Below, piece by piece: positions 1-64,000 of a stretch of DNA of 64,000 nt (its first letter is position 1; each line of letters opens with the position of its first letter). The position numbers were made by a program, and so were the translations under genes. Where the stretch lies: the NCBI GenBank assembly GCA_036874045.1, contig CM072336.1:19897001-19961000 (forward strand), given 5' to 3'. The notes under the pieces are model-generated. The model did not search any database and was not told the DNA's origin. It saw nothing but the letters and a program-made list of their open reading frames with translations. This stretch comes from Cymodocea nodosa. Its lineage: Eukaryota; Streptophyta; Magnoliopsida; Alismatales; Cymodoceaceae.

Positions 1-12
1 TTAACTATCCGG

Positions 13-545
13 AAGCTTAAAAGACTTTTCAAAGAGTTAGAAAGACAACTATCCAACTTTTTCGATAAGTTACAGGTATAACTATCTGAAACTTAAGTCA
101 TTCAATTTACCACATGCAGAATTCCAAAACAGAAGCTTAAAGGATTTTTTGGAGAGTTAGGAAGATAACTATCCGACTTTTTCGGTGAGTTATAGGTATA
201 ACTTTTCGGAACTTAAGTTATCCTATTACGCACGTGCAGAATGATGAAGACGACAATTAAAAGCTTAAAAGGAAAAATCGGAGAGTTAGATAACCATTCG
301 AAATTTCAAAAGAGTTTCGGTGAGTTACAGTTTAACTATCCGAAACTTAAGTCATTGAATTTCTCATGTGCAGAAATCCAAACAGAAGCTCAAATGAGTT
401 TTCGGAGAGTTAAGAAGATAACTATCCGAAAAACAGGAAGTTTAGGTGAGTTACATTTCTAACTATCCAAAACTTAAGTTATTCTTTTATGCACGTGCAG
501 AATTAAAGAGATAGCAGTCAGAAGCTTAAAAGAAATCAGAGAGTT
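13..545 (+). repeat. Tandem array of ~120-136 bp units inside the LTR
   Basis: Four units and part of a fifth start at AGCTTAA or its variants near 13, 133, 262, 386 and 522. Each unit carries, in order, AAGCTTAAA, a GGAGAGTTA/TAACTATCC palindrome, a second GGTGAGTTA/TAACTATCC palindrome, the self-complementary ACTTAAGT, and a CACGTG- or CATGTG-type hexamer followed by CAGAA. Units differ by substitutions and small length changes. CACGTG is the G-box core; a regulatory role is inference. Confidence 0.8.
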
Positions 546-846
546 ACTGTAGTTCACTATTTGAAAGTCAAGAGTTTTTCGATGAGTTAAAACTACAAGT
601 TTTCGATCACTTGACATTTCACGTGAGTAACTTAAAATCCTCACGTGACACATATAACAGGATGTAAGTGAAGAATTGGTAAGTTATGGATGCTCTTCGG
701 TGAGTTATTCATATAACCATTTGAAAGTTAAAGGAAATCAGAAGGTTACTTACTAAACATCAGATAGAACGGTAACTTACCATATTTAGGTCTGATTATT
801 TAGCAAGTACAACAGAATATATCCGTTGAAAGAAAAATGTGATTGT

Positions 847-866
847 TATACCTTTTGGTATAAATA
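847..866 (+). promoter_or_regulatory. LTR TATA box overlapped by an inverted repeat
   Basis: TATAAATA at 859-866 is the likely LTR promoter TATA box. It is overlapped by a perfect inverted repeat, TTATACC (847-853) and GGTATAA (858-864), separated by TTTT. The same arrangement recurs at 10905-10922, and with wobble changes at 51284-51302, 53825-53842 and 60226-60243. Confidence 0.6.
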
Positions 867-1041
867 TGAGAAGTTTAAGAGAAGATCACATAGAGATAAC
901 GATCATACAATATATAGTGAGCTACACAAATTCTAGTTACACGCTCAAGTCTGTAAACAGTTAAGCATACTCAAAAGTTTCACTGTAGAAAAAACTCTGT
1001 GTGCCAAAACTCTGATAGAAAGACTCAAAGCTGTTGGTTCG

Positions 1042-1215
1042 TGAGTTTCTACTTGAAAACTCATTGTTGGTTGAGAGCTTCAACCTGAAAGCTCAACAAA
1101 GAAAGGTTGGTTATTGAGCTTATACCTAAAAGCTCTAAGTGTTGGTTCTTGCTTCAACCTGAAAGCAAGTGTTGTAAGTATTTGAATACTTAGTGAAGCC
1201 CAAGTGTATCTTGGG
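1042..1215 (+). other. Ladder of six small hairpins in the LTR leader
   Basis: Six short inverted repeats follow one another downstream of the TATA box: GAGTTT/AAACTC (1043-1062), GAGCTT/AAGCTC (1075-1094), GAGCTT/AAGCTC (1116-1135), CTTGCTT/AAGCAAG (1148-1169), TAAGTAT/ATACTTA (1175-1192) and CCCAAG/CTTGGG (1199-1215). The first four share an eight-base loop, CAACCTGA or a close relative. GTTGGTT spacers separate several of them. Stem sequence differs between hairpins but pairing holds. They would lie in the leader of the element's RNA. Confidence 0.75.
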
Positions 1216-1401
1216 GGTGGACTAGCCAAGTTGGTGAACCACCTAAAAATTTACTATGTGTTATTTTCCACTTACTGTTTTGCTTTCATTTAATTCATCT
1301 CATCTCACTTTTGTTGAATTAATCGATTCAAAGTTAAAAGATTTAAAAACTTATACTCCTTAACCATTATCCCCCCTTTGGTGAGCCTATCGATCTTAAC
1401 A

Positions 1402-10369: not shown

Positions 10370-11818
10370 TGTTAGGATTGATAGGCTCACTAGAGGGGGG
10401 TGAATGGTGAAGGTGTGTAAATTTTACTTCTTTTTATTTAGAATCGACTGATTCTATTAAACAGTGAGTTGAAATAAATTAAATGGATGCAAAATAGTAA
10501 GAAGAAAATAACACACAACAAATTTTTAGGTAGTTCACCAACTCGGCTAGTCCACCCCCAAGATACACTTGGGCTTCACTAAGTAGACAAGTACTTACAA
10601 CACTTGCTTTCAGGTTGAAGCAAGAACCAACACTTAGAGTTTTTAGGTATAAGCTCAATAACTAACCTTTCTTCGAGCTTTCAGGTTGAAGCTCTCAACC
10701 AATAATGAGTTTTCAGGTTGAAACTCATGAACCAATAGTTTTAAACTTTTCTATTAGAGTTTTAGCACAGGGAGCTTTTCTACTGCAGTGAATCTTTAAG
10801 AGTATTCTTGAATGTTGCAAACTTGAGAGTGTATCTGGAATTTTGTATAGCTCATAGTATATTATATGATCGTTGTCTCTTCCTAATCTTCTCTTCACTT
10901 CTCATATTTATACCAAAAGGTATAACAATCATATTTTTCTTCCAATGGATGTATTCTGTTGTACTTGCTAAGACATCAGACCTAAATATGGTAAGTTATC
11001 GTTCAGGGAGTTATTTCAAGATACCCTTCTGATTTTCTCAAACTTTTGGATAGTTAGCTATGTAACTTTCCGAAGGATGTTTGTAACTCACCGAAAAATC
11101 ACTTAAGTCTTTCTGTTATGTAGGATTTCAGATCGTACAATGAGTTATCACTCAATCAGATACTTGTAACTGTAACTTACCAAACTGTCCTTTGACTATC
11201 GGATAGTTAGCTATAGTAACCCTTCAAAATCCTTCTTTAAGTTTCCGACTACTTTCTTATTTTAGCACATGCATAAAAGAATAACTTAAGTTTTCGGATA
11301 GATAAGTCTGTAACCTTCTAAAAATTCCTATTTTTTGGATAGTTAGCTTTCTAACTCACCGAAAACTCCTTTAAGCTTCTGTTCTGGACTTCTACATGTG
11401 GGTAATTGAATGACTTAAGTTTCGGATAGTTAGCTTTTCTAACTTTCTGATATTCCTTGAGCTTCTAGATAGTTAACTTCTTAACTCTTCGATCATTCAA
11501 CCAACTTTCTTAACTGTTCGATCATTTAACTCTTCGAAGGCTTTGTAATTTCGGATAGTTATTCTTCTAACTGTCCGACAGTATTTCTGTTGCTTTACTC
11601 TTCGAATACTTAAGCTTGTAACTTACTGAAAATTAACTTTCTTCCAGATACTTGGTTTGGTAACTATTCGATTTTCTTGTAGCTTTATAGCAGTAATTTT
11701 TGAACTACTTGTATCTGTTTATCTACCTTCTGTTCTTTTGCTGCACTGTCTTAATTGTGAAATAGAATATGTTTCCTCACATAGGTTTTTGCATTATCAA
11801 AATACTAGGGTCCTAACA
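10370..11818 (-). mobile_element. 5' LTR of the compound Copia (1449 bp)
   Basis: The LTR is bounded by TGTTAGG (10370) and CCTAACA (11818), perfect 7-bp inverted ends. On the minus strand it holds, in order, a field of GGANAGTTA/TAACTNTCC palindromes (about 11650-11040), a TATA box (10912-10905) within the TTATACC/GGTATAA inverted repeat, and the hairpin ladder (about 10730-10553; stems GAGTTT/AAACTC, GAGCTT/AAGCTC, TTGCTT/AAGCAA and CCCAAG/CTTGGG). The flank at 11819 is Athila LTR sequence. It matches 1-1401 and 50768-52131. Confidence 0.9.
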
Positions 11819-12564: not shown

Positions 12565-14419
12565 TGTTTAGAATGAAAAAGTGCATATTATTAATGGTTA
12601 AATGATGGTTAATTGCATAATATTTAGCTTATCATATGAGAATTAAGTCATTATGTTATAATTGCACTGTTATATGCTTTAATTGAAGAATCTGCTTAAT
12701 TTTAGGGAATTAATGTTAATTTAGTACATTTATGAACTGTCGGTAAATTGTAGGCTGTGAAATTCTTAAGTATCCGAAAATGCATCTTAGCATTGGATAG
12801 TTATACTTGTAACTCTCCAAAATCTTATTTTATGTTTAAACTGCTGCTGACACGTGTTGAGAGCTGGTAGATTTACTTACATTATAACTCGTTAAGTTAG
12901 TATAACTGCACGCATTGAGTTACATGAAAATACACTAAGGCAACGTGTTAGATTAGCGTTATAAACTTAAGTTGTTACTTTTGCACGTGTTTTATAGTTA
13001 AATCAACGAAGGAAGTCCGTTGAGTTATCTGTAACTCCACAAACTATATATTTTCTAATATGCCACTGTAGTGGTTGCAGGAACAGACAGTTGGAAGGAA
13101 AAATCACGTTTGCACGTATCACGCAGGAATTCAATCGTGTAGGGAGAAAGAAATCATCGCCGTTGATCTGAAAGAAGGAAATCCAACCGACCATTCAAGC
13201 AAAAGCAGTTACTAATGAAGAAATATAAAAGAAAAGAAGAAAAAAAAGGAGTGTGTGTGATCGATGGACGGCCAGTGTATACAGAGGAGGAGCACCGAGC
13301 TTTCTACAGACAGTTTCGGCGATTCTCCGAAATATCACACCAACCATCGTATCACCACCATAATCACCAATCATCGGAGGTCTATGAGGATACTTGCCTG
13401 ATGTCGGGTCGATTCCGAGCCAAACACAGTGTCTGACAACCACTGTGAGGAGTGATCGCGTCGCAGGAAGGGAAGACATTTTCACCAAGCGTCGACTCAT
13501 ATTTTAGGAGATCGTAAAGCTTTTAGCCTTGGCTTCAAGTTGATGCCTATATGCTGAAGAGGAGATCATCTTGCAATTCTGGAGTCGCGATTCTATAGGG
13601 AGAGGAGATAGAATTGTAAGTGGTTAAATTTTCAGTGGTGTAATCGCGTTGCAAGTAGTGTCGGAAGTATTTATTGTCAAGTGAGATTACTTTAGATTTC
13701 ACCTTTCGCCCATTTCATCAAAACAAAAATACCAAAAACTATTTATCTTTGTTTGTATATTGTATTTGAGTGTTGTATTGTTTGTGTTGTATCGTGATTA
13801 ATGTTATCTGTATCAGTTTTATGATTGTTTCATGTTAGTTTTAATTTTACAGTTTACTGAAATTGGTTCGTACAAAACAACTTAAAGATTTTAATGGTTA
13901 CTGTTTGAATCATCTGAATGTTAGTATTGCTTAATGATAAATCCAATGTTAACTAGCATTAAAAAGCTTAATTGATGTTATTTACAATCTGTGGAATCGC
14001 CCAATGGTTGACCAAATTCCTCTGTAAATAGCAGTATTATTAAGAAGAGACAAGCTCGTGGAGTTAACTTAAGTCCACGAGGATAGTCCGTTGAGTTAGC
14101 CATAACTCAACAAACTTAGTCCGTTGAGTTAACTGTAACTCAACGGAGTGATTATTGAATATAAATTTGAATTGTTCAGAATCAAACATTTCTTAAATTC
14201 GTCAGCAATTCCCTGTGGGATCAACCTGTACTTGTACACTGATACAATAGACACTGTGCACTTGCAGTTAAAGTACAAATTGGAATTAATATCTAAATTG
14301 TATTAAAGGTTGTTCGTTTACTTCTAAAAGAAAGAATAGGCATAAAGATAAATTAACTAAGTAAAAATAGAAGTAACAAATCCAAGTTTTTCTAGTGTAG
14401 TGCTGGGAAAACCCAAACA
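12565..14419 (+). mobile_element. Athila 5' LTR (1855 bp)
   Basis: It starts TGTTTAG and ends CCAAACA. Near its upstream end it has GGATAGTTA (12795-12803), six bases, then TAACTCTCC (12810-12818): the palindrome type that fills the Copia LTRs. Near 13215-13690 are blocks shared with 11819-12267. A palindrome cluster lies at 14055-14147. Several short ORFs occur but none matches its 3' LTR counterpart as a conserved protein or looks like a known family. Confidence 0.92.
14055..14147 (+). repeat. Palindrome cluster at the end of the Athila LTR
   Basis: Three consecutive inverted repeats: CTCGTGGA/TCCACGAG (14055-14081), GTTGAGTTA/TAACTCAAC (14090-14111, four-base loop) and TCCGTTGAGTTA/TAACTCAACGGA (14120-14147, loop ACTG, 12 perfect pairs). 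Related clusters stand before the third ORF, the gag and the F-box gene of the same element, and in the LTR pieces at 28950-29040 and 33740-33805. Confidence 0.85.
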
Positions 14420-15552: not shown

Positions 15553-16110
15553 AATATGCCACCTTGTGCTAAATTTCTGAAGGATTGGTGTACTAAGAAA
15601 AGAGAGCGAAAAGTTCTTAGAAAGGTCTTTTTAGCTGAGTAAAGTAGTTCCCTATTTTTGCCACAAATTCCTAAAAAGTTATCTGATCCTGGAATCCCTG
15701 TTATATCATGCACTATAGGAAATACCATTTTAGAAAGAACCTTAATAGACTTAGGTGCAGGTATACATGTTATGCCAAGTGATATATTTGCATCCTTAGG
15801 ATTAGAAGGCTTAACTCCTACTAGTATGGTTATTCAATTAGTTGATAAAAGTATAAGATACCCTAGAGGAAAAATAGAGGATGTCTTAATTAAAATCAAG
15901 AATTTTATATATCCTATTGATATTGTAATTTTGGATTCCCAACAAATTAAGCATAAAAATAGTGATACATCTTTAATTTTGGGAAGGCCATTTTTAGCAA
16001 CATCAGGGGCTGTTATAAATTGTAAAACTAGAGTAATGAAGTTAGCATATGGTAATGATGATACTCAATTAAATATTTTCAAAGCAGAAAGGTTTGAGGA
16101 GTTAGAAATG
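15553..16110 (+). pseudogene. Athila retropepsin-type protease
   Basis: After AKFLKDWCTKKRE, an Athila gag-protease junction motif, comes GIPVISCTIGNTILERTLIDLGAGIHVMPSDI in overlapping short blocks: the expected strand, active-site loop context and following helix of plant Gypsy protease. ILGRPFLAT near 15978-16004 is the second conserved protease block. It is followed without gap by the RT region. Confidence 0.85.
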
Positions 16111-17250
16111 TCCTTATGTACTACAGACTTTTTAGAGGATGAAGGAGATATGTTAGATGATGTGATTCAAGAAGAATTAAATAGGAAAATCAATTCTGAA
16201 ACTTTAGAAGAAAGTGAAAGCATAAATATAGAAGGAGTTCAGGAAGAAATTAATTTAAAAAATGATGATGTTCAATTAGGAGCTCTAGCTTCTGATGGGC
16301 AGCATTTAGAATTAAAACATTTACCTCCTGAATTAACCTATATATTTCTAGAAGATAAACGGACCTGTCCAATCATTATTGCTTTAGATTTGAAAGAGAA
16401 TCAAATAGCTAAATTAAAAGATGTAGTAAAAATTTATAAAGAAGCAATAGGATGGATTATGACTAATATAAAAGGGTTAAGTTCAACTTTATGGTGTCAC
16501 CACATATATTTAGAAGAGAATGCTAAACCTGTTAGAATTCCTGAGAGGAGATTAAATCCAAACCTTAAAGAAGTAGTCAGGAAGGAAATAGTTAAATGGT
16601 TAGATAATGATATAATATATCCAATTTCTGATAGCTCGTGGGTTAGTCCAATCCATGTAGTTTCCAAGAAATCAAGATTAACAGTTATTAGGAATGAAAG
16701 TCAAGACTTGATACCTACTAGAATTCAATTAGGCTGGAGAGTATGTATAGACTATAGAAAGTTGAATGCGGTGACTAGGAAAGATCATTTTCCCTTACCT
16801 TTTATAGATCAAATGTTGGAAAGATTGGCAGGGCAAGAATATTTTTGTTTCCTAGACGGGTATTCAGGGTATAATCAAATTCCAGTAGCATTAGAGGATC
16901 AAGAGAAAACAACTTTCACCTGTCCTAATGGAACTTATGCTTTTAAAAGAATGCTATTCGGATTATGCAATGCGCCAACTACCTTTCAAAGGTGTGTGTA
17001 GGGCATATTTACTAGAATGACTGATGAACTTTTAGAAATATTTATGGATGATTTTACTGTATATGGCAACTCATATGAAGTCTATTTAAGCAATTTAGAC
17101 CAAATATTAAAACACTATGTAGAAAAAAATCTGGTTTTAAATTGGGAAAAATGTCACTTCATGGTTAAACAAGGAATAGTCTTAGGGCATGTTGTTTCTA
17201 AAAAAGGGTTGGAAGTAGATAAAGCTAAAATAGAAGTAATTTCTAATCTA
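16111..17250 (+). pseudogene. Athila reverse transcriptase
   Basis: RT blocks are present in order: PERRLNPNLKEVVRKEIVKW, SPIHVVSKK, WRVCIDYRKLNAVTRKDHFP, LDGYSGYNQIPVA, FGLCNAPTTFQRC, the catalytic FMDDFTVYG, and [12 protein letters not shown] with [14 protein letters not shown]. Wording is of the Athila clade. The coding region is broken. Confidence 0.92.
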
Positions 17251-17830
17251 CCAGAACCTAAATCAGTAAACGATATTAGATCATTTCTAGGACATGCTGG
17301 TTATTATAGAAGATTTATTAAAAACTTTAGCAAGATAGCTAGAGCTTTAACTAATCTATTAAAAGATGTTCCATTTAACTTTGATAAAAATTGCAAGGAA
17401 GCATTTTTCAGACTTAAGACTAGCTTAATTTTAACTCCTATAATTCAAGCACCTAATTGGAACCATCCATTTGAATTAATGTGCGATGCTTCTGATTTTG
17501 CTGTAGGAGCAGTGTTAGGACAGAAGATAGAAAAATCTCCTAGAGTGATTCATTATGAAAGTAAAACCTTAAATGATGCTCAAGTTAATTACACAACTAC
17601 TGAAAAAGAATTATTAGCTATTGTGTTTGCTTTAGAAAAGTTTAGATCATATTTGATTGGAGCTAAAGTAATAGTATACACGGATCATTCAGCTCTAAAA
17701 CATCTAATAAAGAAAAAAGAAACTAAACCTAGATTGATCCGATGGATATTATTATTGCAAGAATTCGATCTAGAAATTAAAGATAAAAAAGGTTGTGAGA
17801 ATGTAGTAGCAGATCATTTATCAAGATTAC
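17251..17830 (+). pseudogene. Athila RNase H
   Basis: Begins with the RT-RNase H connection ([19 protein letters not shown]), then [44 protein letters not shown] and VADHLSRL, the catalytic and structural blocks of Gypsy RNase H. This part reads well; neighbours are broken. Confidence 0.92.
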
Positions 17831-19095
17831 AAATAGAAAAATCAAATATTGAAATTAAGGATAATTTTCCTGATGAACAATTAATGACCATCAACACAAT
17901 GCCTTGGTATGCAGACATAGTTAATTACTTAGTTACTGGTTTAACACCTAAGGATTGGAATAGATAGGATAAGAAATTGTTTTTCTCAAGAGTAAAATAT
18001 TACTATTGGGAAGACCCTTACTTATTTAAGAAATGTCCTGATCAGGTTTTAAGGAGGTGTGTTCCAGAAATTGAATATTCGAGCATATTGTCTTTCTGTC
18101 ATGACCAAGCTTGTGGAGGACATTTTGGTTCAGGGAAAACTAGTGCAAAAATTTTACAATGTGGGTTTTATTGGCCAACACTATTCAAAGATGCTCATAA
18201 ATATTGCTTAAGTTGTTTAAGATGTCAACAAATAGGACGAATATCAAAGAGGAATATGATGCCTCTTAATCCTATAGTTGAGGTTGAAATCTTTGATGTG
18301 TGGGGAATAGATTTTATGGGTCCATTTCCTATGTCTAATCAATTTAATTACATATTGTTGGGGGTGGATTATGTATCTAAATGGATATAAGCTATTCCTA
18401 CAAAAACTAACGATAACAAAGTGGTAATACAATTTGTAAGAACAAATATATTTGCCAGATTTGGAATACCTAAAGCTATTATCAGTGATAGAGGAACTCA
18501 TTCTATAATAGAAGTTTTGAAGCCTTAATGAAGAAATATGGAGTAAACCACAAAATTGCAACATCATATCATCTGCAAACAAGTGGACAAGTAGAAAGTG
18601 CAAACAAACAAATTAAATTAATCTTGGAAAAAGTAGTAAATCCTACTAGAACAGATTGGGCTAATAGATTGATAGATGCACTTTGGGCTTATAGAACTGC
18701 TTATAAAACGAGCTTAGGTATGTCACCTTTTAGGCTAGTATATGGAAAAAGTTGTCATTTACCAGTTGAAATAGAACATAAAGCTTATTGGGCATTAAAA
18801 ACTCTGAACACTAATTTAAATCAAGCTACTGAAAATAGGAAAATGCAACTAATTGAATTAGAAGAATTTAGAAATGAAGCTTATTCGAAGATTGTAAGAG
18901 AAAAAGAGAAAATTAAATTCTGGCATGATAGAAAAATTATTCCTAAAAGCTTTGAAATAGGACAAGAAGTATATCTTTATATGGCTAGACTCCATAACCA
19001 TCTAGGAAAATTAAGATCTAGATGGGCAGGACCTTACATAGTTCGAAATGTTTATCCTTATAGAGCTATTGAAATTGAAAATCCTAAAAATTAGA
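17831..19095 (+). pseudogene. Athila integrase
   Basis: The zinc region (HDQACGGHFG and CLSCLRCQQIG, HHCC pattern, 18100-18240), the catalytic core ([53 protein letters not shown]) and the C-terminal domain ([22 protein letters not shown]) are present in order. It ends near 19095 and closely matches the fragment at 1402-2812 in opposite orientation. It is broken in a few places. Confidence 0.9.
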
Positions 19096-27468: not shown

Positions 27469-29309
27469 TGTTTAGAATGAAAAAGTGCATTTTATTAATG
27501 GTTAAATGATGGTTAATTGCATAATATTTAGCTTATCATATGAGAATTAAGCCATTATGTTATAATTGCACTATTATATGCTTTAATTGAAGAATCTGCT
27601 TAATTTTAGGGAATTAATGTTAATTTAGTATATTTATGAACTATTGGTAAATTGTAGGCTGTGAAATTCTTAAGTATCCGAAAATGCATCTGAGCATTGG
27701 ATAGTTATACCTGTAACTCTCCGAAATGTTATTTTATGTTTAAACTACTGCTGACACGTGTTGGGAGCTGGTAGATTTACTTACGTTATAACTCGTTAAG
27801 TTAGTATAACTGCACGCGTTGAGTTACATGAAAATACACTAAGGCAACGCGTTAGGTTAGCATTATAAACTTAAGTTGTTATTTTTGCACGTGTTTTATA
27901 GTTAAATCAACGAAGGAAGTCCATTGAGTTATCTGTAACTCCACGGACTATATATTTTCTAATATGCCACTGTAGCAGTTGCAGGAACAAACAGTTGGAA
28001 GGAAAAACCACGTTTGCATGTATTACGCAGGAATTCAATCGTGCAAGGAGAAAGAAATCATCGTCGTTGATCTGAAGGAAGGAAATCCAACCGACCATTC
28101 AAGCAGAAGCAATTGCTACTGAAGAAATATAAAAGAAAAGAAGAAAAAAAAGGAGTGTGTGTGATCGATGGACGGCTAGTGTATACAGAGGAGGAGTATC
28201 GAGCTTTCTGCAGATAGTATCGGCGATTCTCCGAAGTATCACACCAACCATCGTATCACCACCATAATCACCAATCATCGGAGGTCTGTGAGGATACTTG
28301 CCTGATGTCGGGTCGATTTCAAGCCAAACACAGTGCCTGACAACCACTGTGAGGAATGATCGCGTCGCAGGAAGGGAAGACATTTTCACCAAGCGCCAAC
28401 TCATATTTCAGGAGATCGTAAAGCTTTTAGCCTTGGCTTCAGGTTGATGCCTGTATGCTGAAGAGGAGATCATCTTGCAATTCTGGACTCGTGATTCTAT
28501 AGGGAGAGGAGACAGAATTGTAAGTGGTTAAATTTTCAGTGGTGTAATTGCGTTGCGAGTAGTGTTGGAAGTATTTACTATCAAGTGAGATTACTTTAGA
28601 TTTCACATTTCGCCCATTTCATCAAAACAAAAATACCAAAAACAATTTATCTTTGTTTGTATGTTGTATTTGAGTGTTGTATCGTGATTAATGTTATCTG
28701 TATCAGTTTTATGATTGTTTCATGTTAGTTTTAATTTTACAGTTTACTGAAATTGGTTCGTACAAAACAACTTAAAGATTTTAATGGTTACTGTTTGAAT
28801 CATCTGAATGCTAGTATTGCTTAATGATAAATCCAATGTTAACTAGCATTAAAAAGCTTAATTGATGTTATTTACAATCTGTGGAATCGCCTAATGGTTG
28901 GTCGAATTCCTCTGTAAATAGCAGTATTATAAAGAAGAGACAGGCTCGTGGAGTTAACTTAAGTCCACGAGGATAGTTCGTTGAGTTAGCCATAACTCAA
29001 TGAACTTAGTCTGTTGAGTTAACTGTAACTCAACAGAGTGCTTATTGAATATAAATTTGAATTGTTCAGAATCAAACATTTCTTAAATTCGTCAGCAATT
29101 CCCTATGGGATCGACCTGTACTTGTACACTGATACAATAGACACTGTGCACTTGCAGTTAAAGTACAAATTGGAATTAATATCTAAATTGTATTAAAGGT
29201 TGTTTGTTTACTTCTAAAAGAAAGAATAGGCATAAAGATAAATTTACTAAGTAAAAATAGAAGTAACAAATCCAAGTTTTTCTAGTGTAGTGCTGGGAAA
29301 ACCCAAACA
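27469..29309 (+). mobile_element. Athila 3' LTR (1841 bp)
   Basis: It matches 12565-14419 end to end (TGTTTAG to CCAAACA) with a few percent substitutions and one short length difference near 28676. It is preceded by the polypurine tract and followed by the target duplication ACACA at 29310-29314. Confidence 0.92.
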
Positions 29310-33736: not shown

Positions 33737-34077
33737 CGTTAGTCCGTTGAGTTAGCCATAACTCAATGAACTTTGTCCGTTGAGTTAACTGTAATTTAAT
33801 GGAGAGCTTATTGAATATATAAATTTGATTATTAACAAACGAACAGTTCTCAAGTTCTTCAGCAATTCCCTGTGGGATCAACCTGTACTTGCACACTGAT
33901 ACAATAGACACTGTGCACTTGCAGTTAAAGTACAAATTGGAATTAATATCTAAATTGTATTAAAGGTTGTTTGTTTACTTCTAAAAGAAAGAATAGGCAT
34001 AAAGATAAATTAACTAAGTAAAAACAGAAATAAAAAATCTAAGTTTTTCTGGTGTAGTGCTGGGAAAACACAAACAC
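33737..34077 (+). mobile_element. Athila LTR 3'-end fragment
   Basis: It matches 14078-14419 of the Athila LTR, including the GTTGAGTTA palindromes, CAGCAATTCCCTGTGGGATC and the closing GGGAAAACACAAACA. No primer site follows, so it is the end of a 3' or solo LTR. Together with 11819-12267 it may be one older Athila LTR split by the Tnt1/Tork-like Copia, with about 0.4 kb lost between. Confidence 0.8.
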
Positions 34078-40217: not shown

Positions 40218-41845
40218 TGAAAGGATCGAATGGCACACTAGAGGGGGGTGAATAGTGTCCTAATAAAGTTTATTTTGCTTTTAAAAATTTGAAAGTTGTT
40301 GATACTAATGAACCATGATTAATTGATTTTGGAATTAAAACTTGTAGTGCAAAAAGTAAAGAATACAAAGAGATTTATAGTGATTCCCCAAACTAGGCAG
40401 TCCACTCCTCAAGGCCACAACCTCGAGAATTCCACTAAGTGCTTTTAAGGCTAAGCACAAACCTTAAACAAGTTACTTTTTCAGGCTAAGCAACAACCTT
40501 ACAGATGTTTTTAAAGGCTAAACAAAAACCTCACACAAAACGCCAACTTTGTGTACTCAAGACCCCAATCTTGAGCAAATGAAGTGTCACACTTCACTCT
40601 CTTCACCAAGGCCCCAACCTTGAGAAGGTTATACTCATAGCACCCTTGTGAGTTAGGGTTTTGAAAGCTAATCAAGAAAACAGTTTAAGATCAGGAGTCA
40701 CAGACTCAAAATAAAATAGACACACAAGACCAGATCAACTCCAATGAAGAGTTGACAAAGAAGCTCTAAGGAGAATTCTTGATTGATCTGCAACTATTGA
40801 TCTTCTAGACTTTGTTGCAAACGAATCTTCAAAGTGCTTGCAGAATTGCTGAGTAGACAATTTCTCCTTTTGAGTGTTGAAAAATTCTGTGTGTCTATGT
40901 TTTAGTTTTTTTTTTCTACAAATCCTTTTTATTTTTCCTTCGAGATTTGCATAGGTGGAAAGAATTCTAAAATGGTCAGATGCCTTATGTAGTAATTCAT
41001 TTCTAGCAACCTTTAATCATAATAAAGTCAAGATCTGTAATCAAAAGATATCTTGCCACAACGGTTAGTCAATTAATGATAGCTGCAGTTTTTGTAAAAA
41101 TAAAATCTTCGGAGGCTTTTAGAAAATCGGAGACTTAGAAAGATAACCTATCAAAACTCAAAATCATTTCGGATAGATAGAGCTAACATTTCGAAAGACC
41201 ACTTAAGTCATGTATTAAAATTAAAACATGTGTCCTTCTGAAACAACGTTATAAAATATTAAAAATAAACTATCCGATAGAGAGGGCATGTTTTGGATAC
41301 TTATAAAAGATAACTCTCCGATCCTTAAGTCATTTCAGATAGTTACACAGGTAATCTTCTGAAAAGTCATTTAAGTCAGAAATAATAGAAAACTCAACCA
41401 TCTGAAGCTTAAAACTGTTTTCGGATACTTACTGAAGGTAACTCTCCAATTCTTAAGAGTTTTCGGATAGTTACATCGTAACCTTCTGAAAAATCACTTA
41501 AGTCAAGCGATGAGAGACTAACATGTGTCTTTCAAAAGAAAGTAACCGAAAATATATTAAATCAAAGAAACAACTAACTCTCCAGAATAAAAACCTTAAC
41601 TATCCAAAACAGAAGGGATTTCAGATACTTACCATAAAAATCACATCTGAACATAAACAGACTTAACTCACCGAAGATAAATACTTTTCGGATAGTTATT
41701 GATATAACTGTCCAAAAAGTCGAGAGGCTTAACCATCTGATTTGTCCTATTTTATTTGGTGACTTATAAAATAACTCTCCGATCAATACACTGTAGACAA
41801 AATAACTTGTCGAAATCTAATTTAAAGGACTTTGAGTACAAAGTA
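40218..41845 (-). mobile_element. 5' LTR of the SIRE-type Copia, outer end lost
   Basis: The inner end is TGAAAGGATCGAATGG at 40218, with the CTAGAGGGGGGTGAAT block shared by all LTRs of this group. A hairpin ladder with different sequence but the same size occupies about 40400-40640: GTGCTT/AAGCAC with an eight-base loop, CTCAAG/CTTGAG, GAAGTG/CACTTC, CAAGG/CCTTG. Palindromes of the TCGGATAGTTA/TAACTCTCCGA type fill 41090-41780. No clear outer LTR end is seen; Copia gag sequence in plus orientation takes over near 41846. Confidence 0.75.
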
Positions 41846-49884: not shown

Positions 49885-50207
49885 AGACAAAGAGGCTTGT
49901 GATAATATAAATTATGTATTGCATGATTTATTTATTGTAATTTGTTACCGAAAATTACTTATGTAAAGCAATCGCATTATGTAAACTATTTACTGCATTT
50001 AATTTCATACACTTGTTTTTGATAATTTTTGTTTCAAATAATTTTATTTAAACAATTTATTCTTATCCATGAAATTTATGCATGATTTAAAAATTTTGAA
50101 CAATATATACTTAGCAAGTTTTTCTTCCTTACATTTTAATTACATTTTTATAATGCCAAAAAGGGGGAGAAGATAGATTATTTGACTTATTAGGTTTTGT
50201 CATCATC

Positions 50208-50221
50208 AAAAAGGAGGAGAT
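50208..50221 (+). other. Polypurine tract of the SIRE-type Copia
   Basis: AAAAAGGAGGAGAT directly precedes the LTR start TGTTAGG at 50222. A second, similar AAAAAGGGGGAGAAGAT lies at 50157. Both fit the SIRE-clade tract consensus. Confidence 0.8.
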
Positions 50222-52852
50222 TGTTAGGAATTTGTTTTGATGATAAATGCTTTATTAAAGTTTTTAAAGTTTCTAAGTATAATAGTCACGTAATTAAATG
50301 TTGACAAGTTATCAGAAAGTTTCATTTAAAATTTTGAATAGTTAACTTTCGGATAGTTAGATTTTCGAATAGTTAGAATTTCAGACAGTTAAACTTTCAG
50401 ATAGTTAACATTTTGATTTAGTCAAAGAGTTATGTTAAAAACTCGTATAGTTAAGTTATCTGCACATGTGTTTTTAATGTTTTAAGTTGTCATGTGTTTT
50501 TCATGTGCGTTTGGTAATGAAAATCGAAGAGTTAGATAACTATTCGAGTTTTTATATGCATGGATAGATAACTGTTTGAGTTTTATAAAATGACTAATGA
50601 ATAGATAAGTTTTCTTTGTTGAGTCACGTGTTTTGCAGGTGCAAAAACTCGAAGAGTTATAGATAAGTGTTCGAGTTTTTACAAAACTTAAAGGATAAGT
50701 ATTCAACTAAAGTGGTGACTTAGAAGATATTCTACAAATCTCTAAGAAGATAAAGTTTCGGTGAATCTGTTAGGATCGATAGGCTCACTAGAGGGGGGTG
50801 AATGGTGTGAGTGTGTAAATTTTAACTTAATCGATTGATTCAAGATTATCTGTGAGTTGAATTAATTTAAATGGATGCAAAATAGTAAATAGAAAGGAAC
50901 ACAAGACAATTTTTAGGTAGTTCACCAACTCGGCTAGTCCACTCCCAAGATTCACTTGGGCTCCACTAAGTATATAAATACTTACAACACTTGCTTTCAG
51001 GTTGAAGTAAGAACCAACACTTTGAGCTTTCAAGTTAAAGCTCAGCAACCAACCTTTCTTCGAGCTTTCAGGTTCAAGCTCTTAACCAACAACGAATTTT
51101 CAAGTTGAAACTCACAAACCAACAGTTTTAATCTTTGAAACAGAGTTTGAGTGTAGGGAGCTATTGTGCTGTAGTGAACTTTGAGGGTAATCTTGAATAT
51201 TGCAGGCTTGAGAGTTTATCTAGAATTTTTGAGTAGCTCATAGTATATGATGATCGTTGTATTAAACTTCCCTATACTTCTCATATTTATATCAAGAGGT
51301 ATAATGATCATATTCACTTCCAACGAATGTATTCTGTTGTACTTGTTGTGTATTCAGTCTCAAAAATAGTAAATTATTGTTCTGTCTACTGTCCAATATG
51401 TAACCTTCCGATTTCCTTTGACTTTCGGATGGTTAGTTGTGAACTCTCCGAAGAACAGCCGTAACTCATCAAAAATCCACTTAAGTCCTTTTGACTGTGT
51501 CACGTAGGATTTTAAGTTACACACGTGAAGAATCTTTAAGTTCAAATGGTTATGGATGTTAACTTACTGAAATTCTTCAACTTTCAGATAGTTAGCTACA
51601 GTAACCTTTTGAATCATCTTTTAAGCTTCCGACTATTTTCTTCTTATTTTTGCACGTGCAAAATAGAGTGACTTAAGTTTCGAATAGTTAAGTTTGTATC
51701 CTTCTGAAACTTCTCGATTTCTACACGTGTGAAATTCAATGACTTAAGTTTTAGATAGTTAGCCTTCCTAACTTTTTGATTTTCCTTGAGCTTCCAGATA
51801 ATTAGCCCCTTAACTCTCCGATCATTTAGCCAACTATTTTTAAAACCCTCTAAAGGTCTTGTATTTTTGGATAGTTAATTTTCTAACCATTTGAAGGTGA
51901 TTCTGCTGCTTAAAGCTAACTCATCGAATACTTAAGCCTAGTAACTCATCAAAATTCTATCTCTTCTAGATAGTTAAGCCTAGTAACCTTTCGATTTCCT
52001 TTTTATCACTTGCAGCAAATTCTGAACTAACTGTATCAACTTCTGCTCTTTTGCTAAACTATCTAAATTATGAAATACAATTTGTTTCCTCACATAGGTT
52101 TTTACATTATCAAAATACAAGGGTCCTAACAGAATCTACGAGTGGAAATCATGGAAATTCAAAATGATAGTGGAGAAAGTGGAAATTTCAAAATGATAGT
52201 GGACATAGTGGAAATTCAAAAACATAGTGGAAATTGTGGATAACTTGAATTTGAAATTAGTACGTGGATTATGGATTATGGTTGAAGTGGATGAACATGT
52301 TGAACGTGAAGTCAGAGTTCGACTACTAATAGAGAGTACGAGTTGCATTACATTTATCCTGATTCTAATCACAAACTGAAAGATCAAGTTTGAATATTCA
52401 ATCCCAAATCTCAAATATCAAATTTGAATATTCAACTACATATCAAATTCAGAAAAATTCTCCAACATCAGAAGGAGTTCGAAATTCCAAGCAATTTCAG
52501 AAAAAAGAGTTGCAAACGCAAGAAGTTTGGAAATTTGACAATTGGAAAAGAAGAGATACAGAAGTTAAGCAAAAAGAAGGAAATGAGCTATGTGCATAAA
52601 GATTAGGTTTTATACAATTTGAAATTAATTTTGAATAAGGACTTCATTTTCTATTTGAATTGTATATCGGACATTACTGTATCAAAACCGACAAGAAGAG
52701 AATTGAGCTAAAAAGATAGTGTAAATTCTTTCGTTAAAGTTTATAAAGAATAGAATTTTATTTATGAGTGTTTTGTGCTCTTGTTTTATACGCTGGTAAT
52801 TTTAATTACTAAAGACATAATTCACCCTCCCTCTTGTGATACAACGATCCTA
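50222..52852 (+). mobile_element. 3' LTR of the SIRE-type Copia, split by a solo LTR
   Basis: The LTR runs 50222-50767 and resumes at 52137 after the inserted LTR and its second GAATC, ending near ACAACGATCCTA at 52852; net length is about 1.26 kb. Its upstream part has a perfect-core palindrome TCGAAGAGTTA (50524-50534) and TAACTATTCGA (50537-50547), a compensated variant of the TCGGA/TCCGA type. The last bases merge into an RNase H scrap of another Copia. Confidence 0.75.
50768..52131 (-). mobile_element. Solo SIRE-type LTR (1364 bp)
   Basis: Bounded by TGTTAGG (50768) and CCTAACA (52131) and by a perfect 5-bp target duplication GAATC (50763-50767 and 52132-52136). On the minus strand it shows the palindrome field (51980-51380), TATA box (51291-51284) and hairpin ladder (about 51125-50940). 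No internal element sequence is present, so it is the product of LTR-LTR recombination. It is the same family as 1-1401 and 10370-11818. Confidence 0.93.
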
Positions 52853-53302: not shown

Positions 53303-54612
53303 AATAGGGTGAATGGTGAGAGTGTATATTTTTAAATCTAAATTGACTTAATTCAATTTTAATGAATGTGTAAGTAATGTATGAAATGATAATTAAAGTA
53401 GGATAGAATTAAAGCATGAAATAAAATCACATAGAGTAATTTTTAGGTGGTTCACCACTAATGGCTAGTCCACCTCCAACACACAGCTTGGGTTGCACAA
53501 AGTGTTTAAACACTTACAACATTTACTTTCATGTCAAAGCAAGAACTAACCTCTTGAGCTTCCAAGTGGAAACTCAACAACCAACACTTTGAGCTTTTAG
53601 GTCTAAGCTCTTAATCAACCTTGAGTTTTAAGGGATAAACTCATGAACCAACACCTTGAAGCTTTCAACTAGAGTTTATGTGTAAAGAGCTTTCTACACT
53701 TGAATGTGCTTGAGTATTCTTCAATTTTGCATTTACTGAATCTATATTGTTTCTATAATTTCTGTATAGCTCTATGTATGGGTGTATATGATAATCATTA
53801 TTGTTCTCTTTCACTTATTAATCATATTTATACTAAGAGGTATAACAATTATATTTCTTTTAACGGTATTTGTCCTTTTGTACTTACTAAGCAGTCAATC
53901 CCAAATATAGTAAGTTACCATTCAGTATAATTCAAATATATTGTATTCTTGAAACCTTCTGAAAATTTGACCAGTTGTCTTGAAACTATTCAAAAAACTC
54001 GAACAGTTATTCTAAAACTATTTGAAAAACTTGAATAGTTATTAGAAACTATCCAAAAACTCTAATAGTTATCCTTTTATGATTGTCACATGATCCTTTA
54101 AGTTCTGAACATGAGTTTTCTTAGTTTCAACAGTTTACTTGAAACCTTTCGAAAACTCGAACAATTATTTTGTAACTATCTGAAAAACTTGAACAGTTAT
54201 CTTGTAACTATCCAAAAAACTTGAACAATTATCCTTTTGTGCTTGTCACGTGATTCTTTAAGTTCTACATGTGACTCTTCTTAGTTTCAGACAGTTTACT
54301 TGAAATCCTTCAAAAACTTAAACAGTTATCTTGTAACTATTCGATTGACCTTTTTATCTTGTAGTTGTTTTGTAATTTGAAATTTGGACAGTTTAATTTG
54401 AAACCTTCCGAAAAGACTATGAAACCTTTCAACAAATTGTGAGACTATCCAATTTATTGTAACTCAATAATTTTTTTTAGTGTTTTTCTGAATTAGTATT
54501 CCTCTAACCTATTTGACCTTTGTTGGTCTTTTGGCATTTCATCCATACTTGTAAAATACATTTTAATACTTTATATAGATTTTTACATTATCAAAACATA
54601 AGGGTTCTAATA
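53303..54612 (-). mobile_element. SIRE-like LTR, diverged
   Basis: It begins with GGGTGAATGGTGAGAGTG (compare GGGGTGAATGGTG of the other LTRs) and ends GGGTTCTAATA, close to the CCTAACA end. On the minus strand it has the TATA box (53832-53825), a hairpin ladder (53660-53460: GAGTTT/AAACTC, GAGCTT/AAGCTC) and the palindrome field (54470-53930; AACTCGAACAGTTA type). Its right part lies within the 1.6-kb duplication. Confidence 0.75.
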
Positions 54613-55200
54613 AAATAGAATTCCAATAGAAAAATATTTTAAGTTTGTGAACTTAATGAGATTAAGGAATATTTTTATAGATAATAGAAATGAAGAACAT
54701 TCTCATGAATGGTGGAAGTGGAAGTTTGAAATTGTGATACCTACAAATAGTAGAAGCAGAGTGAAAATAAGAAATGCCTTATTGGATTTGATATATAAAT
54801 GAATATAATTGGTCTTTGTGATAAAGTGAGAGATGTTGAAATTGGTCAAAAAATCAAATTCAAGTTTGAATTTGAATTGCAAATTCTAATAGTTATCGAA
54901 AATTTAGGAAATAGTTAGAGGCAAAAATGGTAGAGATAATTGATCATTCAAATGACTATAAATAAAGATGATTTGAGAGATTAAAGGTACAATTAATTTT
55001 ACAGTCACTTGAAAAGATTCACCGTTGAAGCTCCAGATCATCTGGAAAAATCCAACAACATGTTCTACATCTTAATGAACATCCTTCATTCATCGCAATA
55101 GACCTGCCCTAATACCATCTTGAGTGTCACCAACGATTTAGAACCTATCTAATATTAAGGCAAGAAGAGAAACAACTCACGAAGAAGGATAACAGTCAAT
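53622..55200 (-). repeat. Near-identical 1.58-kb duplication, copy 1
   Basis: It equals 60023-61601 with a constant offset of 6401 bases, no length differences, and four substitutions that I can see, all in the first 320 bases. It covers the promoter and upstream part of the LTR at 53303-54612 and 0.6 kb beyond. The latter contains a primer-site-like TGGTATTAGGGCAGG (minus, 55117-55103). Its right end abuts the 3' flank of the GDSL gene. Confidence 0.9.
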
Positions 55201-59524: not shown

Positions 59525-60015
59525 ATGGCTCCTTTACCTTTTGCTTTTGCTTCTACCTCTCTCTCTCTCCCTCTCACCTACAACATCTCCCACCTCTTCT
59601 CCACTCCCATGGATAAACACTCATATCTATGCTAGCATCGATAGTTCTTGATGGTTCTCAATCTTCACTATCTCTCCCATATCATAACTGAGGTCCCATC
59701 TTTTGATCAAGATAGTAGCTAGTGCGATGTCGACCAACTTGTCTTGAGTTGGATTAACGCTACTATCTCTCTCGAGGTGCAAGTTATCCTTCTATCTACC
59801 TCAATAGTGTATGAAGCTTGGGTGACTCTTGAATGTCATCACTCTCCCAGGTTGTGTATTCACCTTAATACACTATGAGACTCCCTCTCTAACTTGTAGA
59901 AATCTTCAAAGCAATCCATGCTCACCTATCTTCTACAAGACAAGAGTATCACTAGCATGCTTCACTCTACCAATGCTTGGATCTTAGACTCAAAACTCAT
60001 CAACTTCGTTCTTAG
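59525..60015 (+). pseudogene. Copia gag, first part
   Basis: Begins MAPLPFAFASTSLSLPLTYN 20 bases after the primer site; later reads VLSWINATISLEVQVILLST, EAWVTLECHHSPR and NAWILDSKLINFVL, the usual gag order of short-LTR Copia elements. It continues after the insertion at 61602. Broken. Confidence 0.7.
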
Positions 60016-61601
60016 CCAACCGTGAGTTTTAAGGTATAAACTCATGAACCAACACCTTGAAGCTTTCAACTAGAGTTTATGTGTAAAGAGCTTTCTACAC
60101 TTGAATGTGCTTGAGTATTCTTCAATTTTGCATTTGCTGAATCTATATTGTTTCTATAATTTCTGTATAGCTCTATGTATGAGTGTATATGATAATCATT
60201 ATTGTTCTCTTTCACTTATTAATCATATTTATACTAAGAGGTATAACAATTATATTTCTTTTAACGGTATTTGTCCTTTTGTACTTACTAAGCAGTCAAT
60301 CCCAAATATAGTAAGTTACCATTCAGTATAATTCAAATATACTGTATTCTTGAAACCTTCTGAAAATTTGACCAGTTGTCTTGAAACTATTCAAAAAACT
60401 CGAACAGTTATTCTAAAACTATTTGAAAAACTTGAATAGTTATTAGAAACTATCCAAAAACTCTAATAGTTATCCTTTTATGATTGTCACATGATCCTTT
60501 AAGTTCTGAACATGAGTTTTCTTAGTTTCAACAGTTTACTTGAAACCTTTCGAAAACTCGAACAATTATTTTGTAACTATCTGAAAAACTTGAACAGTTA
60601 TCTTGTAACTATCCAAAAAACTTGAACAATTATCCTTTTGTGCTTGTCACGTGATTCTTTAAGTTCTACATGTGACTCTTCTTAGTTTCAGACAGTTTAC
60701 TTGAAATCCTTCAAAAACTTAAACAGTTATCTTGTAACTATTCGATTGACCTTTTTATCTTGTAGTTGTTTTGTAATTTGAAATTTGGACAGTTTAATTT
60801 GAAACCTTCCGAAAAGACTATGAAACCTTTCAACAAATTGTGAGACTATCCAATTTATTGTAACTCAATAATTTTTTTTAGTGTTTTTCTGAATTAGTAT
60901 TCCTCTAACCTATTTGACCTTTGTTGGTCTTTTGGCATTTCATCCATACTTGTAAAATACATTTTAATACTTTATATAGATTTTTACATTATCAAAACAT
61001 AAGGGTTCTAATAAAATAGAATTCCAATAGAAAAATATTTTAAGTTTGTGAACTTAATGAGATTAAGGAATATTTTTATAGATAATAGAAATGAAGAACA
61101 TTCTCATGAATGGTGGAAGTGGAAGTTTGAAATTGTGATACCTACAAATAGTAGAAGCAGAGTGAAAATAAGAAATGCCTTATTGGATTTGATATATAAA
61201 TGAATATAATTGGTCTTTGTGATAAAGTGAGAGATGTTGAAATTGGTCAAAAAATCAAATTCAAGTTTGAATTTGAATTGCAAATTCTAATAGTTATCGA
61301 AAATTTAGGAAATAGTTAGAGGCAAAAATGGTAGAGATAATTGATCATTCAAATGACTATAAATAAAGATGATTTGAGAGATTAAAGGTACAATTAATTT
61401 TACAGTCACTTGAAAAGATTCACCGTTGAAGCTCCAGATCATCTGGAAAAATCCAACAACATGTTCTACATCTTAATGAACATCCTTCATTCATCGCAAT
61501 AGACCTGCCCTAATACCATCTTGAGTGTCACCAACGATTTAGAACCTATCTAATATTAAGGCAAGAAGAGAAACAACTCACGAAGAAGGATAACAGTCAA
61601 T
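60016..61601 (-). mobile_element. Recent 1.59-kb insertion, copy 2 of the duplication
   Basis: Flanked by 5-bp CTTAG repeats and near-identical to 53622-55200. It carries an LTR promoter part plus 0.6 kb beyond, but lacks TG/CA ends at its limits, so it is not a standard solo LTR. About 0.25% divergence from copy 1 makes it the youngest event I can recognise here. At its left end CTTAG resembles CTTAA of copy 1, so the exact limit is uncertain by a few bases. Confidence 0.8.
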
Positions 61602-62609: not shown

Positions 62610-64000
62610 TGTTAGGAATAACTTTATATGAAATATAAATTCTAATATTAAATATGTTATTTTGATGATGAAAAATCTTGGTATTTAATTGAAAACCTCT
62701 TGTTAGTACATTTATAAGTTGTGGTCACTAATTTGTATTTAAGTATTAGAACTAAGAGCTAGAAAAAGAACAAACACTTTTTTGTTGCAAGACTCGGGAA
62801 GCTAAATATCTTACTATAGAAAATTTGGTAACTCTTTCTCTAAAATCTTGTAAACTTATGATCACAAAACCTATATAGTTATAGTGTTATGCACGTATGC
62901 TTTAAATAACTTAACTTCTTCACGTGTTTTCCATATGCTTTTTTTAATGTCATCGAAGAGTTAAGATAACTATTTGAGTTTTTCATATGGTTATTTGATA
63001 ACTGTTCAAGTTTTGTAAGACTAACATTTTAATTTAAGTTTTACAGGTCACATGCTTTGCATGTGAGAAATTAGAAGAGTTAAGAAATAAGTGTTTGAGT
63101 TTTTATAAGACTTACAAGTATAATAGTTTGACAAAGATGAAAAGTTAAGGTAACTCGATGGAATAACTGTCAAATCTTAAAATAATACTCCAATAGCTAA
63201 ATTGAATACCTACTGATGTTTATGGTAACTTATTGACTGAAATAAGAATTAGATAAGTTATTGCATATCTACAAGTTACTTTATTGTAAAATATATTTCA
63301 AGGAAAGGAGTATCAAAATAGAATGAACAACTAGAGACACAAAGAAATGACGAAAATCATGGATTAATTGGTGTTTCCAAATTTAGGAATTAATGAGTTT
63401 CAAAAGCTAGATTTCAAAGAAAGAAAAGTAAGACAAAGCACAAGTTGGAAAGTAGAGGAGAGAAAACAAAGAGCAACCAATGTGTATGGATTGGAATCTT
63501 GAGCTCTTGTCTTCCTTTTGTAAGTGTGATTTATAGAAGCCAAGATTTTGGAGCATTTGAGGAGAATCACACGAAGTCCTTTTGATTATATGTGCTATTA
63601 ATTCTTGTGTGTTCTCAAGTAAAGTTACTAGTGTAATTTTTGGTTGAATGCTCATATGCTTAATTTGTTAGCTCTGTAGGTTTTTAATCTGCTTAAAAAC
63701 CTATCTCACTAGGGTGTGGTGAGAATTGTTCTATAATTGAAGATTTGAGAATGTGGTGAGGTTGGGACCTCACACACATAGAGTTGGAACTCTATGTTGG
63801 TGTGTAAAAATGTGATGATGTACTTGGTTGGGTGTGCAATTAGAAAACACCACTTTGGGTTGGCATTAAGCTTGTGAAAAATACCATTGAGGCTGGTATT
63901 TAGCCTAAGTAAAATATTTATAAGGTTAGATGTTGAGCCTATGAAAAATATCATTGTAAGGGTTGGCATTAAGCTCATGAAAATACCAATTTAGTGGTCT
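62610..64000 (+). mobile_element. SIRE-type LTR, right end beyond the window
   Basis: Starts TGTTAGGAATAACTTTATATG after GACTA. It contains ATCGAAGAGTTAAGATAACTATTTGAG-like palindromes in split form near 62945-62975 and other AGTTA motifs to 63150, as in the LTR at 50222. A hairpin ladder occupies 63670-64000: GTGAGGT/ACCTCAC (63756-63773), CATAGAGTT/AACTCTATG (63777-63796), ATACCA/TGGTAT (near 63882-63900). It could be a 5', 3' or solo LTR. Confidence 0.75.
63670..64000 (+). other. Hairpin ladder and GGCATTAAGC repeats in the LTR leader
   Basis: Successive inverted repeats and about five related units with GAGCC/GGCATTAAGC, TGAAAAATA and CCATTG follow one another to the window edge. Their sequence differs from the ladders of the other LTRs, but position within the LTR and hairpin size are alike. 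Confidence 0.6.

Follow-up and report, generated by a model that had tools for sequence, protein, structure and literature searches.

A ladder of short hairpins lies between the TATA box and the LTR end of Sirevirus-like elements in the 64-kb stretch of DNA analysed here (the window), and recurs in three LTR sequence types of one genome: that of copies A-D, and the distantly related types of ladders F and G. In the A-D type its stems carry an excess of compensating changes across genome copies and change more slowly than the loops, and the units repeat a loop, NNACYTNA, and a linker, TTGGTT. The ladder is probably a selected structure. The best explanation overall, to which we give a little less than an even chance, is that the ladder gives these elements a structured 5' leader (R/U5), acting there as a multi-site platform for Gag binding and packaging.

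The window lies at C2:19897001-19961000 of its genome, in plant-like DNA crowded with nested LTR retrotransposons. The most complete ladder is that of copy A, with the following features.

1..1401, plus strand: copy A, a solo LTR of about 1738 bp, of which the first 337 bp precede window position 1 (start at L018 position 135)
859..866, plus strand: TATA box TATAAATA of copy A, read from the sequence
1042..1063, plus strand: H1, TGAGTTT-8-AAACTCA, 7 bp, loop 8
1075..1094, plus strand: H2, GAGCTT-caacctga-AAGCTC, 6 bp, loop 8
1116..1135, plus strand: H3, GAGCTT-atacctaa-AAGCTC, 6 bp, loop 8
1148..1169, plus strand: H4, CTTGCTT-caacctga-AAGCAAG, 7 bp, loop 8
1175..1192, plus strand: H5, TAAGTAT-4-ATACTTA, 7 bp, loop 4
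1199..1215, plus strand: H6, CCCAAG-5-CTTGGG, 6 bp, loop 5
1216..1243, plus strand: motif GGTGGACTAGCC..GTGAACCACC, directly 3' of the ladder

The 5-bp target duplication of copy A, found by eye, is ATTAT, which precedes TGTTAGAACC in L018 and recurs at 1402-1406, after the LTR end CTTAACA at 1401. Six consecutive hairpins between the TATA box and the LTR end had been proposed by a first-pass annotation, and all six are present in copy A (1042-1215) with perfect stems of 6-7 bp. The geometry that it gave, six paired, eight in the loop and six paired, holds for H1-H4 but not for H5 and H6, the loops of which are shorter. H1-H4 are homologous units made of a TTGGTT linker, a 6-bp stem and an 8-nt loop, in which the 5' arm ends in TT and the return arm starts with AA. 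Among 171 distinct H1-H4 units from 57 copies, the loop reads NNACYTNA in 151, and TTGGTT lies within the 11-nt spacer in 143. Pairs 1, 2 and 4 of the unit stems are the most variable between units, and pairs 5 and 6 are nearly invariant.

The motif that follows the ladder has three matches in the window (0.00 expected), and 9 of 939 cells differ in it among 27 A-like copies. In the form GTGGACTAGCC..GTGAACCACC it stands after the ladder at 1216-1243 and at equivalent places in B, C, D, F and G. In A-like copies it is at least as conserved as the stems, and GTGG/CCAC pairing is possible within it. Its function is perhaps 3' end formation.

The same ladder had been reported in three further LTRs. 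It does recur in copies B, C and D, all on the minus strand, but not intact, several of the stems being imperfect. A shortened copy (E) and two ladders absent from the earlier list (F and G) were also found.

10370..11818, minus strand: 5' LTR of element B, followed by ATTGG and a TATCAGAGC primer-binding site (10369-10356)
10557..10728, minus strand: ladder of copy B, from the hairpin listing and the shuffle scan
50768..52131, minus strand: copy C, a solo LTR with a 5-bp target duplication, GATTC (by eye)
50944..51114, minus strand: ladder of copy C, with H1 and H4 imperfect
53500..53643, minus strand: ladder of copy D, H1-H5, with H4 decayed and H6, just beyond 53500, largely degraded
60023..60044, minus strand: copy E, H1 alone left, matching D at 99% upstream of H1 and cut off after it
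40408..40659, minus strand: ladder F, in a divergent LTR family with other stems, found by the hairpin scan
63677..64000, plus strand: ladder G, in a further divergent family, continuing beyond the window (L056 677-1046)

One or two positions are not Watson-Crick in each of B H3, C H1, C H4, D H3 and D H4. A TATAAATATGA TATA motif is present in B-E too. The LTR stretches of D and E (53609-54660 and 60010-61061, minus strand) are 99% identical. E ends after H1, its ladder having thus been interrupted by a duplication or a nested insertion.

Ladders were compared with 1000 dinucleotide shuffles each, counting non-overlapping perfect hairpins with a stem of at least 6, a loop of 3-9 and at least two G/C. 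Copy A has five such hairpins (shuffle mean 0.33) and copy B four (0.32), counts reached by none of the shuffles; copies C and D have three each (0.25 and 0.37), reached by 2/1000 in both cases. The densest 180-nt cluster of hairpins in the whole window is copy A, and 20 shuffled windows never held more than three. Since H1-H4 are homologous repeats, these hairpin counts are not independent events. Plain chance is ruled out for A, B, F and G (0/1000), and nearly so for C and D.

Ladder F has six hairpins in 376 nt (including one at 40755-40735) against 0.52 in shuffles (0/1000); examples of its stems are GTGCTT-agccttaa-AAGCAC (40458-40439) and TGCTCAAGA-ttgggg-TCTTGAGTA (40577-40554). Its units resemble the H1-H4 type (AAGGTT-T-GTGCTT-AGCCTTAA-AAGCAC), with additional hairpins that have TTGGGG-like loops. 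The LTR that carries it (40408-40755, minus strand) ends in CACCCCCCTCTAGTG...CTTTCA, followed by AGTGGTATCAGAGC. When the F region was used as a query, similarity to other LTRs was seen in U3 and at the LTR end, and none was found to the ladders of A-D. Ladder G has five hairpins in 381 nt, 50 nt of which lie beyond the window, against 0.35 in shuffles (0/1000), with stems of up to 11 bp; this type is known from one copy plus a decayed relative in L051. F and G are about 70% identical over 192 nt. In contrast, six LTRs of a second poly-C end class (CTCTTGTG) from the neighbouring 200 kb (L048, L052, L053, L055, L062 (2669) and L064) have 0-1 hairpins in the 270-380 bp before the LTR end.

The ladder-bearing LTRs look like those of Sireviruses (Ty1/copia). 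The available parts of PMC2829016 describe the Sirevirus 5' LTR/internal junction, poly-C signal, TATA box and long LTR. The junction of element B, CTAACA ATTGG TATCAGAGC at 10375-10356, is of the Sirevirus type CA-ATTGG (or AGTGG)-TATCAGAGC, and that of F reads ...CA AGTGG TATCAGAGC; A and C, as solo LTRs, have no such junction. The poly-C integrase signal, placed in Sireviruses about 20 bp from the LTR end, is CACCCCCCTCTAGTG close to the ends of B, C and F and CCCCCCTTTGGTG in A, and is decayed in D. Sirevirus LTRs are long with a TATA box roughly in the middle, and here the LTRs measure 1449 bp (B), 1364 bp (C) and about 1738 bp (A), with the TATA box at 0.62-0.69 of their length. A candidate for the polypurine tract that an inverted repeat flanks where Sirevirus 3' LTRs start, AAGGAGGAGATTG, was seen by eye between TATCAAAA- and TTTTGATAA-type arms near 3130-3065 and 50190-50250. 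The Pfam domains RVT_2, rve, SH3_retrovirus and gag_pre-integrs were found in the window, and a CCHC knuckle was read near 9523 in element B. Of the 120 listed relatives of a reverse transcriptase fragment, those with an organism in their name comprise two from Apium graveolens, one from Vitis vinifera and a record labelled Bartonella.

Several other features of the window were noted. A truncated LTR start with a polypurine tract (3097-2811, minus strand) is probably the 3' LTR remnant of element B. The U3 (1-800, plus strand, of A, and the U3 of B-D) is by eye full of repeated dyads, e.g. GTTAACTATCCGAAA / TTTCGGTGAGTTA, which recall the palindromic boxes found upstream in Sireviruses. Long direct repeats at 14164-14419, 29054-29309 and 33821-34076 (92-98%), the first of which is just before Ty3-type coding sequence (RVT_1, RT_RNaseH, 15658-17967), may be LTRs of a separate family.

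The first-pass annotation also held that the stems vary and yet keep pairing. The differences that it quoted are mostly between different hairpins of one copy, but same-site compensation is found among genome copies. In the window it is sparse (H5 is AAGTAT/ATACTT in A and AAGTGT/ACACTT in D), and as four copies are too few to test compensation, further copies were taken from the genome. The resulting set has 97 distinct copies, all from one genome, with 93 from the window's own genome (374.6 Mb, 28 contigs). Searches for A-, D-, F- and L047-like copies scored 40 of 2765, 2195, 788 and 2121 first-look candidates, respectively, the 40 F-like places scoring 94-100%. In all, 30 of the 40 A-like places were retrieved, along with 20 of the 39 other D-like, 20 of the 39 other F-like and 38 of the 39 other L047-like; a separate A-like comparison placed 27 copies (28 of the 40 places) against copy A. 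Identical sequences were merged, and columns with more than 30% gaps were excluded from the tests. Copy A supplied the pair structure. This choice alone favours pairing in A-like copies, but it does not favour double changes.

In the 97 copies, both partners of a pair changed on one branch 34 times, and 26 of these changes ended paired, all of them Watson-Crick. A tree-aware null gave 16.3 double changes and 8.1 paired (largest of 500: 28 and 19; P=0.002), and slid registers gave 8-20 and 3-6. In 57 copies there were 18-20 double-change branches, 13-16 of them paired, over three reconstructions (slid registers: 2-9 and 0-2), and 14 paired against 4.0 in the tree null (largest of 500: 10). The excess is also seen with representatives below 90% identity (41 copies, 22 paired against 6.9), below 85% (23 copies, 14 against 4.9) and below 80% (13 copies, 16 against 4.1), and is not significant below 75% (7 copies, 5 against 2.5, P=0.09). 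Individual pairs that occur in more than one Watson-Crick form are H2.4 (C-G in 56 and T-A in 25 of 97 copies), H3.4 (C-G 65, T-A 16 of 95), H4.3 (T-A 86, A-T 10 of 96) and H5.6 (A-T 44, G-C 35 of 86). H1.1 (T-A 71, G-C 14 of 96) and H1.2 (G-C 70, A-T 10, T-A 8 of 96) are less sure in register due to an alignment gap in one subfamily. The weakest ladder pair is H6.3, Watson-Crick in 56/96 copies. Since the stems change in pairs, a plain tandem repeat with conserved sequence is ruled out as the sole explanation.

The check set for this claim was covariation beyond phylogeny. The count of branch events does exceed the tree-aware null, but an R-scape-like pairwise G-test with a tree null gave no significant pair (best E=0.117 with 57 copies and 2.07 with 97), and thus the objection that there is no such covariation is only partly overcome. 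Ladder pairs rank 1 (H5.6), 3, 13 and 14 of 22155 column pairs in this test, with E from 2.1 upward, and off-register neighbours in H1 rank 5 and 12, where one subfamily has an alignment gap. A unit-level G-test on the 171 units, which is confounded by hairpin identity, gave E>1 for every pair listed.

Constraint also differs within the ladder. Because copies were chosen by ladder similarity, only contrasts inside the ladder are free of bias. In the 27 A-like copies, 27/1944 stem cells are off the majority base, against 47/1107 in loops and 59/1969 in spacers. On internal branches, substitutions per site are 0.47 in stems and 1.61 in loops with 57 copies, and 1.25 and 3.27 with 97. The contrast between stems and loops is very small in 21 F copies (52/2016 against 35/987), the rates being slightly affected by hairpin f3, which is one base off register. 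The paired double changes and the slower stems support the earlier reading of paired change as selection on structure; of the RNA and DNA that it named together, RNA is favoured, but this is not proven. It could be argued that no structural selection is involved, and that template-switch (quasipalindrome) correction in reverse transcription or repair perfects inverted repeats that tandem duplication then spreads. The ladder units are homologous repeats, and paired double changes that are Watson-Crick in 26 of 26 cases are what one-step templated correction would give. However, particular bases are retained in the loops and linkers, substitution on internal branches is slower in stems than in loops, and the six LTRs of the other poly-C class carry just 0-1 such hairpins, so that this origin appears very improbable.

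The data on strand are mixed. Over the 97 copies (mean of five reconstructions), Watson-Crick pairs went to G.U and to A.C in a ratio of 22.4:11.0 on internal branches and 59.0:70.8 on terminal branches (Fisher P=0.033 on rounded counts). A smaller copy set, for which no significance test was made, shows a trend in the same direction (9:5 internal, 27:37 terminal). As G.U forms in sense RNA and A.C does not, transposing lineages seem to tolerate what sense RNA tolerates, and inserted copies seem to decay about evenly toward both. Folding against shuffles points the other way: in 57 copies, 28 of which belong to the A subfamily, mean z is -1.94 for sense and -3.22 for antisense, with 24 and 49 copies below -2, and mean ladder pairing probability is 0.44 and 0.56, respectively. 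Copy D is reversed (z -4.40 sense, -1.25 antisense), and the sense minimum-energy fold of copy A does not show the whole ladder. Thus the sense RNA strand is favoured as the target of selection, with partial evidence from the G.U bias, but average folding z-scores favour antisense and the matter is not settled.

The same data bear on the possibility that the ladder is a DNA element, its repeated dyads serving a transcription factor as binding sites past the transcription start. The TTGGTT/AACCAA linker resembles MYB sites, and TTGGTT is in most unit spacers (143/171). Antisense folds at least as well as sense relative to shuffles, and the available parts of PMC2829016 and PMC10760457 describe palindromic repeats upstream in Sirevirus LTRs for which regulatory roles have been proposed. 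However, a fixed binding site does not need a stem that varies in sequence while its pairing stays, nor does it fit the G.U bias on internal branches, which makes a DNA role quite unlikely.

Each H1-H4 unit could also form an H-type pseudoknot, in which linker GGTT pairs with loop AACC across the 6-bp stem, with a connecting loop of 1-3 nt, the whole being a tandem array like the tobamovirus upstream pseudoknot domain. Linker-loop complementarity of at least 4 bp, with at least two G-C, is found in 12 of 21 window units against 5.2 in column permutations (P about 0.001), and F offers AGGTT x AGCCT. Over the 171 units, however, GGTT pairs fully with loop bases l5-l2 in only 88, with three pairs in 61, two in 5 and no GGTT in 17; no linker-loop pair reaches E<1 in the unit-level test, and both motifs may be conserved for other reasons. 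The pseudoknot is accordingly given a slim chance.

Relatives were sought in databases and in the literature. Rfam has no match in the window at gathering score, and for 1000-1260 at E<=5 there are two matches that fall well short of their thresholds (17.9 of 88 and 11 of 59 bits). In viral contigs, the motif search gave no match, the poly-C signal two matches with no LTR seen in either, and reverse transcriptase alignment confirmed none of 16 pattern matches; in genome contigs the poly-C signal hit 15 prokaryote records, taken as chance matches. In the available parts of the open-licence literature, among them those of PMC10578108, PMC11656987 and PMC10760457, no ladder downstream of the TATA box was found described. 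The nearest known motifs, as far as the available text of PMC2829016 goes, are the RM boxes, high-copy dyad-symmetric LTR motifs of the same element genus. These are upstream of the TATA box and mostly have a CGG-CCG core with short or no intervening bases, whereas the ladder has 8-nt loops in H1-H4 and varying stems, which in A-D lack that core. As it is also downstream of the TATA box, the ladder is not an RM box. The accessible part of PMC10760457 reports predicted hairpins concentrated in the LTRs of maize Copia elements, so that structure in Sirevirus LTRs as such was already known. It deals with the mapping of small RNAs to Sirevirus palindromes, proposes a tug of war between function and silencing, and cites Bousios 2016 (PMC4728375) on such palindromes and small RNAs. 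That text concerns the cis-regulatory region and small RNAs; it does not speak of a ladder with compensated stems downstream of the TATA box. In the available text of PMC3601003, Sire LTRs are modelled and stem-loops are noted in long retroviral R regions, but no such ladder is shown, and the R region is given as much shorter in plant Pseudoviridae.

The ladder may also be compared with viral RNA elements. Tandem small structures in an untranslated region are also found in the tobacco mosaic virus upstream pseudoknot domain (PMC4683447, in part); that domain is in the 3' untranslated region, however, and the pseudoknot form of the ladder is a candidate. The ladder is like a retroviral R-U5 leader in having several stem-loops between promoter and gag, and differs from it in that H1-H4 are homologous units repeated in tandem, with a single loop motif. 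Retroviral R-U5 leaders carry packaging and dimerisation stem-loops in this interval, with conservation tied to both arms. Some small RNA viruses have multiple degenerate packaging signals, in which several hairpins share a common loop motif. An example is satellite tobacco necrosis virus (available parts of PMC3593212 and PMC6475782), which has another replication strategy and for which coat-protein binding was studied directly. What likens the ladder to a retroviral packaging and dimerisation element is its position and the CCHC knuckle in the same element.

In the favoured account, four homologous hairpin units (H1-H4) and two further hairpins would make up the ladder in the 5' leader, transcription presumably starting upstream; the placement in the leader comes only from the upstream TATA box. 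The ladder follows this TATA box and, in element B, also precedes the primer-binding site. Selection on pairing would keep it in active elements, and decay would follow insertion. Zinc knuckles prefer unpaired G and U-G steps, and the stems would keep UUGGUU linkers and ACYU loops exposed, offering a zinc-knuckle Gag a series of repeated sites. A multivalent leader of this kind would raise the chance of genomic RNA entering particles, possibly as dimers. The specific function of the ladder as repeated Gag-binding sites that promote selective packaging and/or dimerisation of genomic RNA is inferred, and we hold it tentatively. The Gag platform is preferred because it is the simplest way of joining position, repeated motifs, variable stems and the CCHC knuckle of the same element.

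The main rival is control of translation or splicing, by which tandem hairpins would slow scanning or gate ribosomes, so that a fraction of transcripts makes Gag, without any Gag binding. The ladder is in the right leader position for this too, and translated and packaged transcript pools are separate in the Copia element BARE, according to the accessible part of PMC3735527. Weak A/T-rich stems of 6 bp would, however, be poor blocks to scanning, and an apical motif conserved in 151/171 units suggests recognition rather than a mere block. This rival is therefore possible, if rather unlikely.

Structured retroelement leaders are a known kind, and what is new here is one built as an array of compensating repeat hairpins. 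The ladder may also be a source or target of small RNAs. A bolder reading, which we consider unlikely, is that the leader is modular: a tandem array, still evolving, of almost identical hairpins (or small pseudoknots) that read protein. Compensation would renew the stems, the ACYU loop and UUGGUU linker would remain constant, and several divergent LTR types of one genome would have kept or re-made a multivalent packaging code. A repeated and conserved structure in the leader, available in many natural variants, would allow the choice of genomic RNA to be studied directly.
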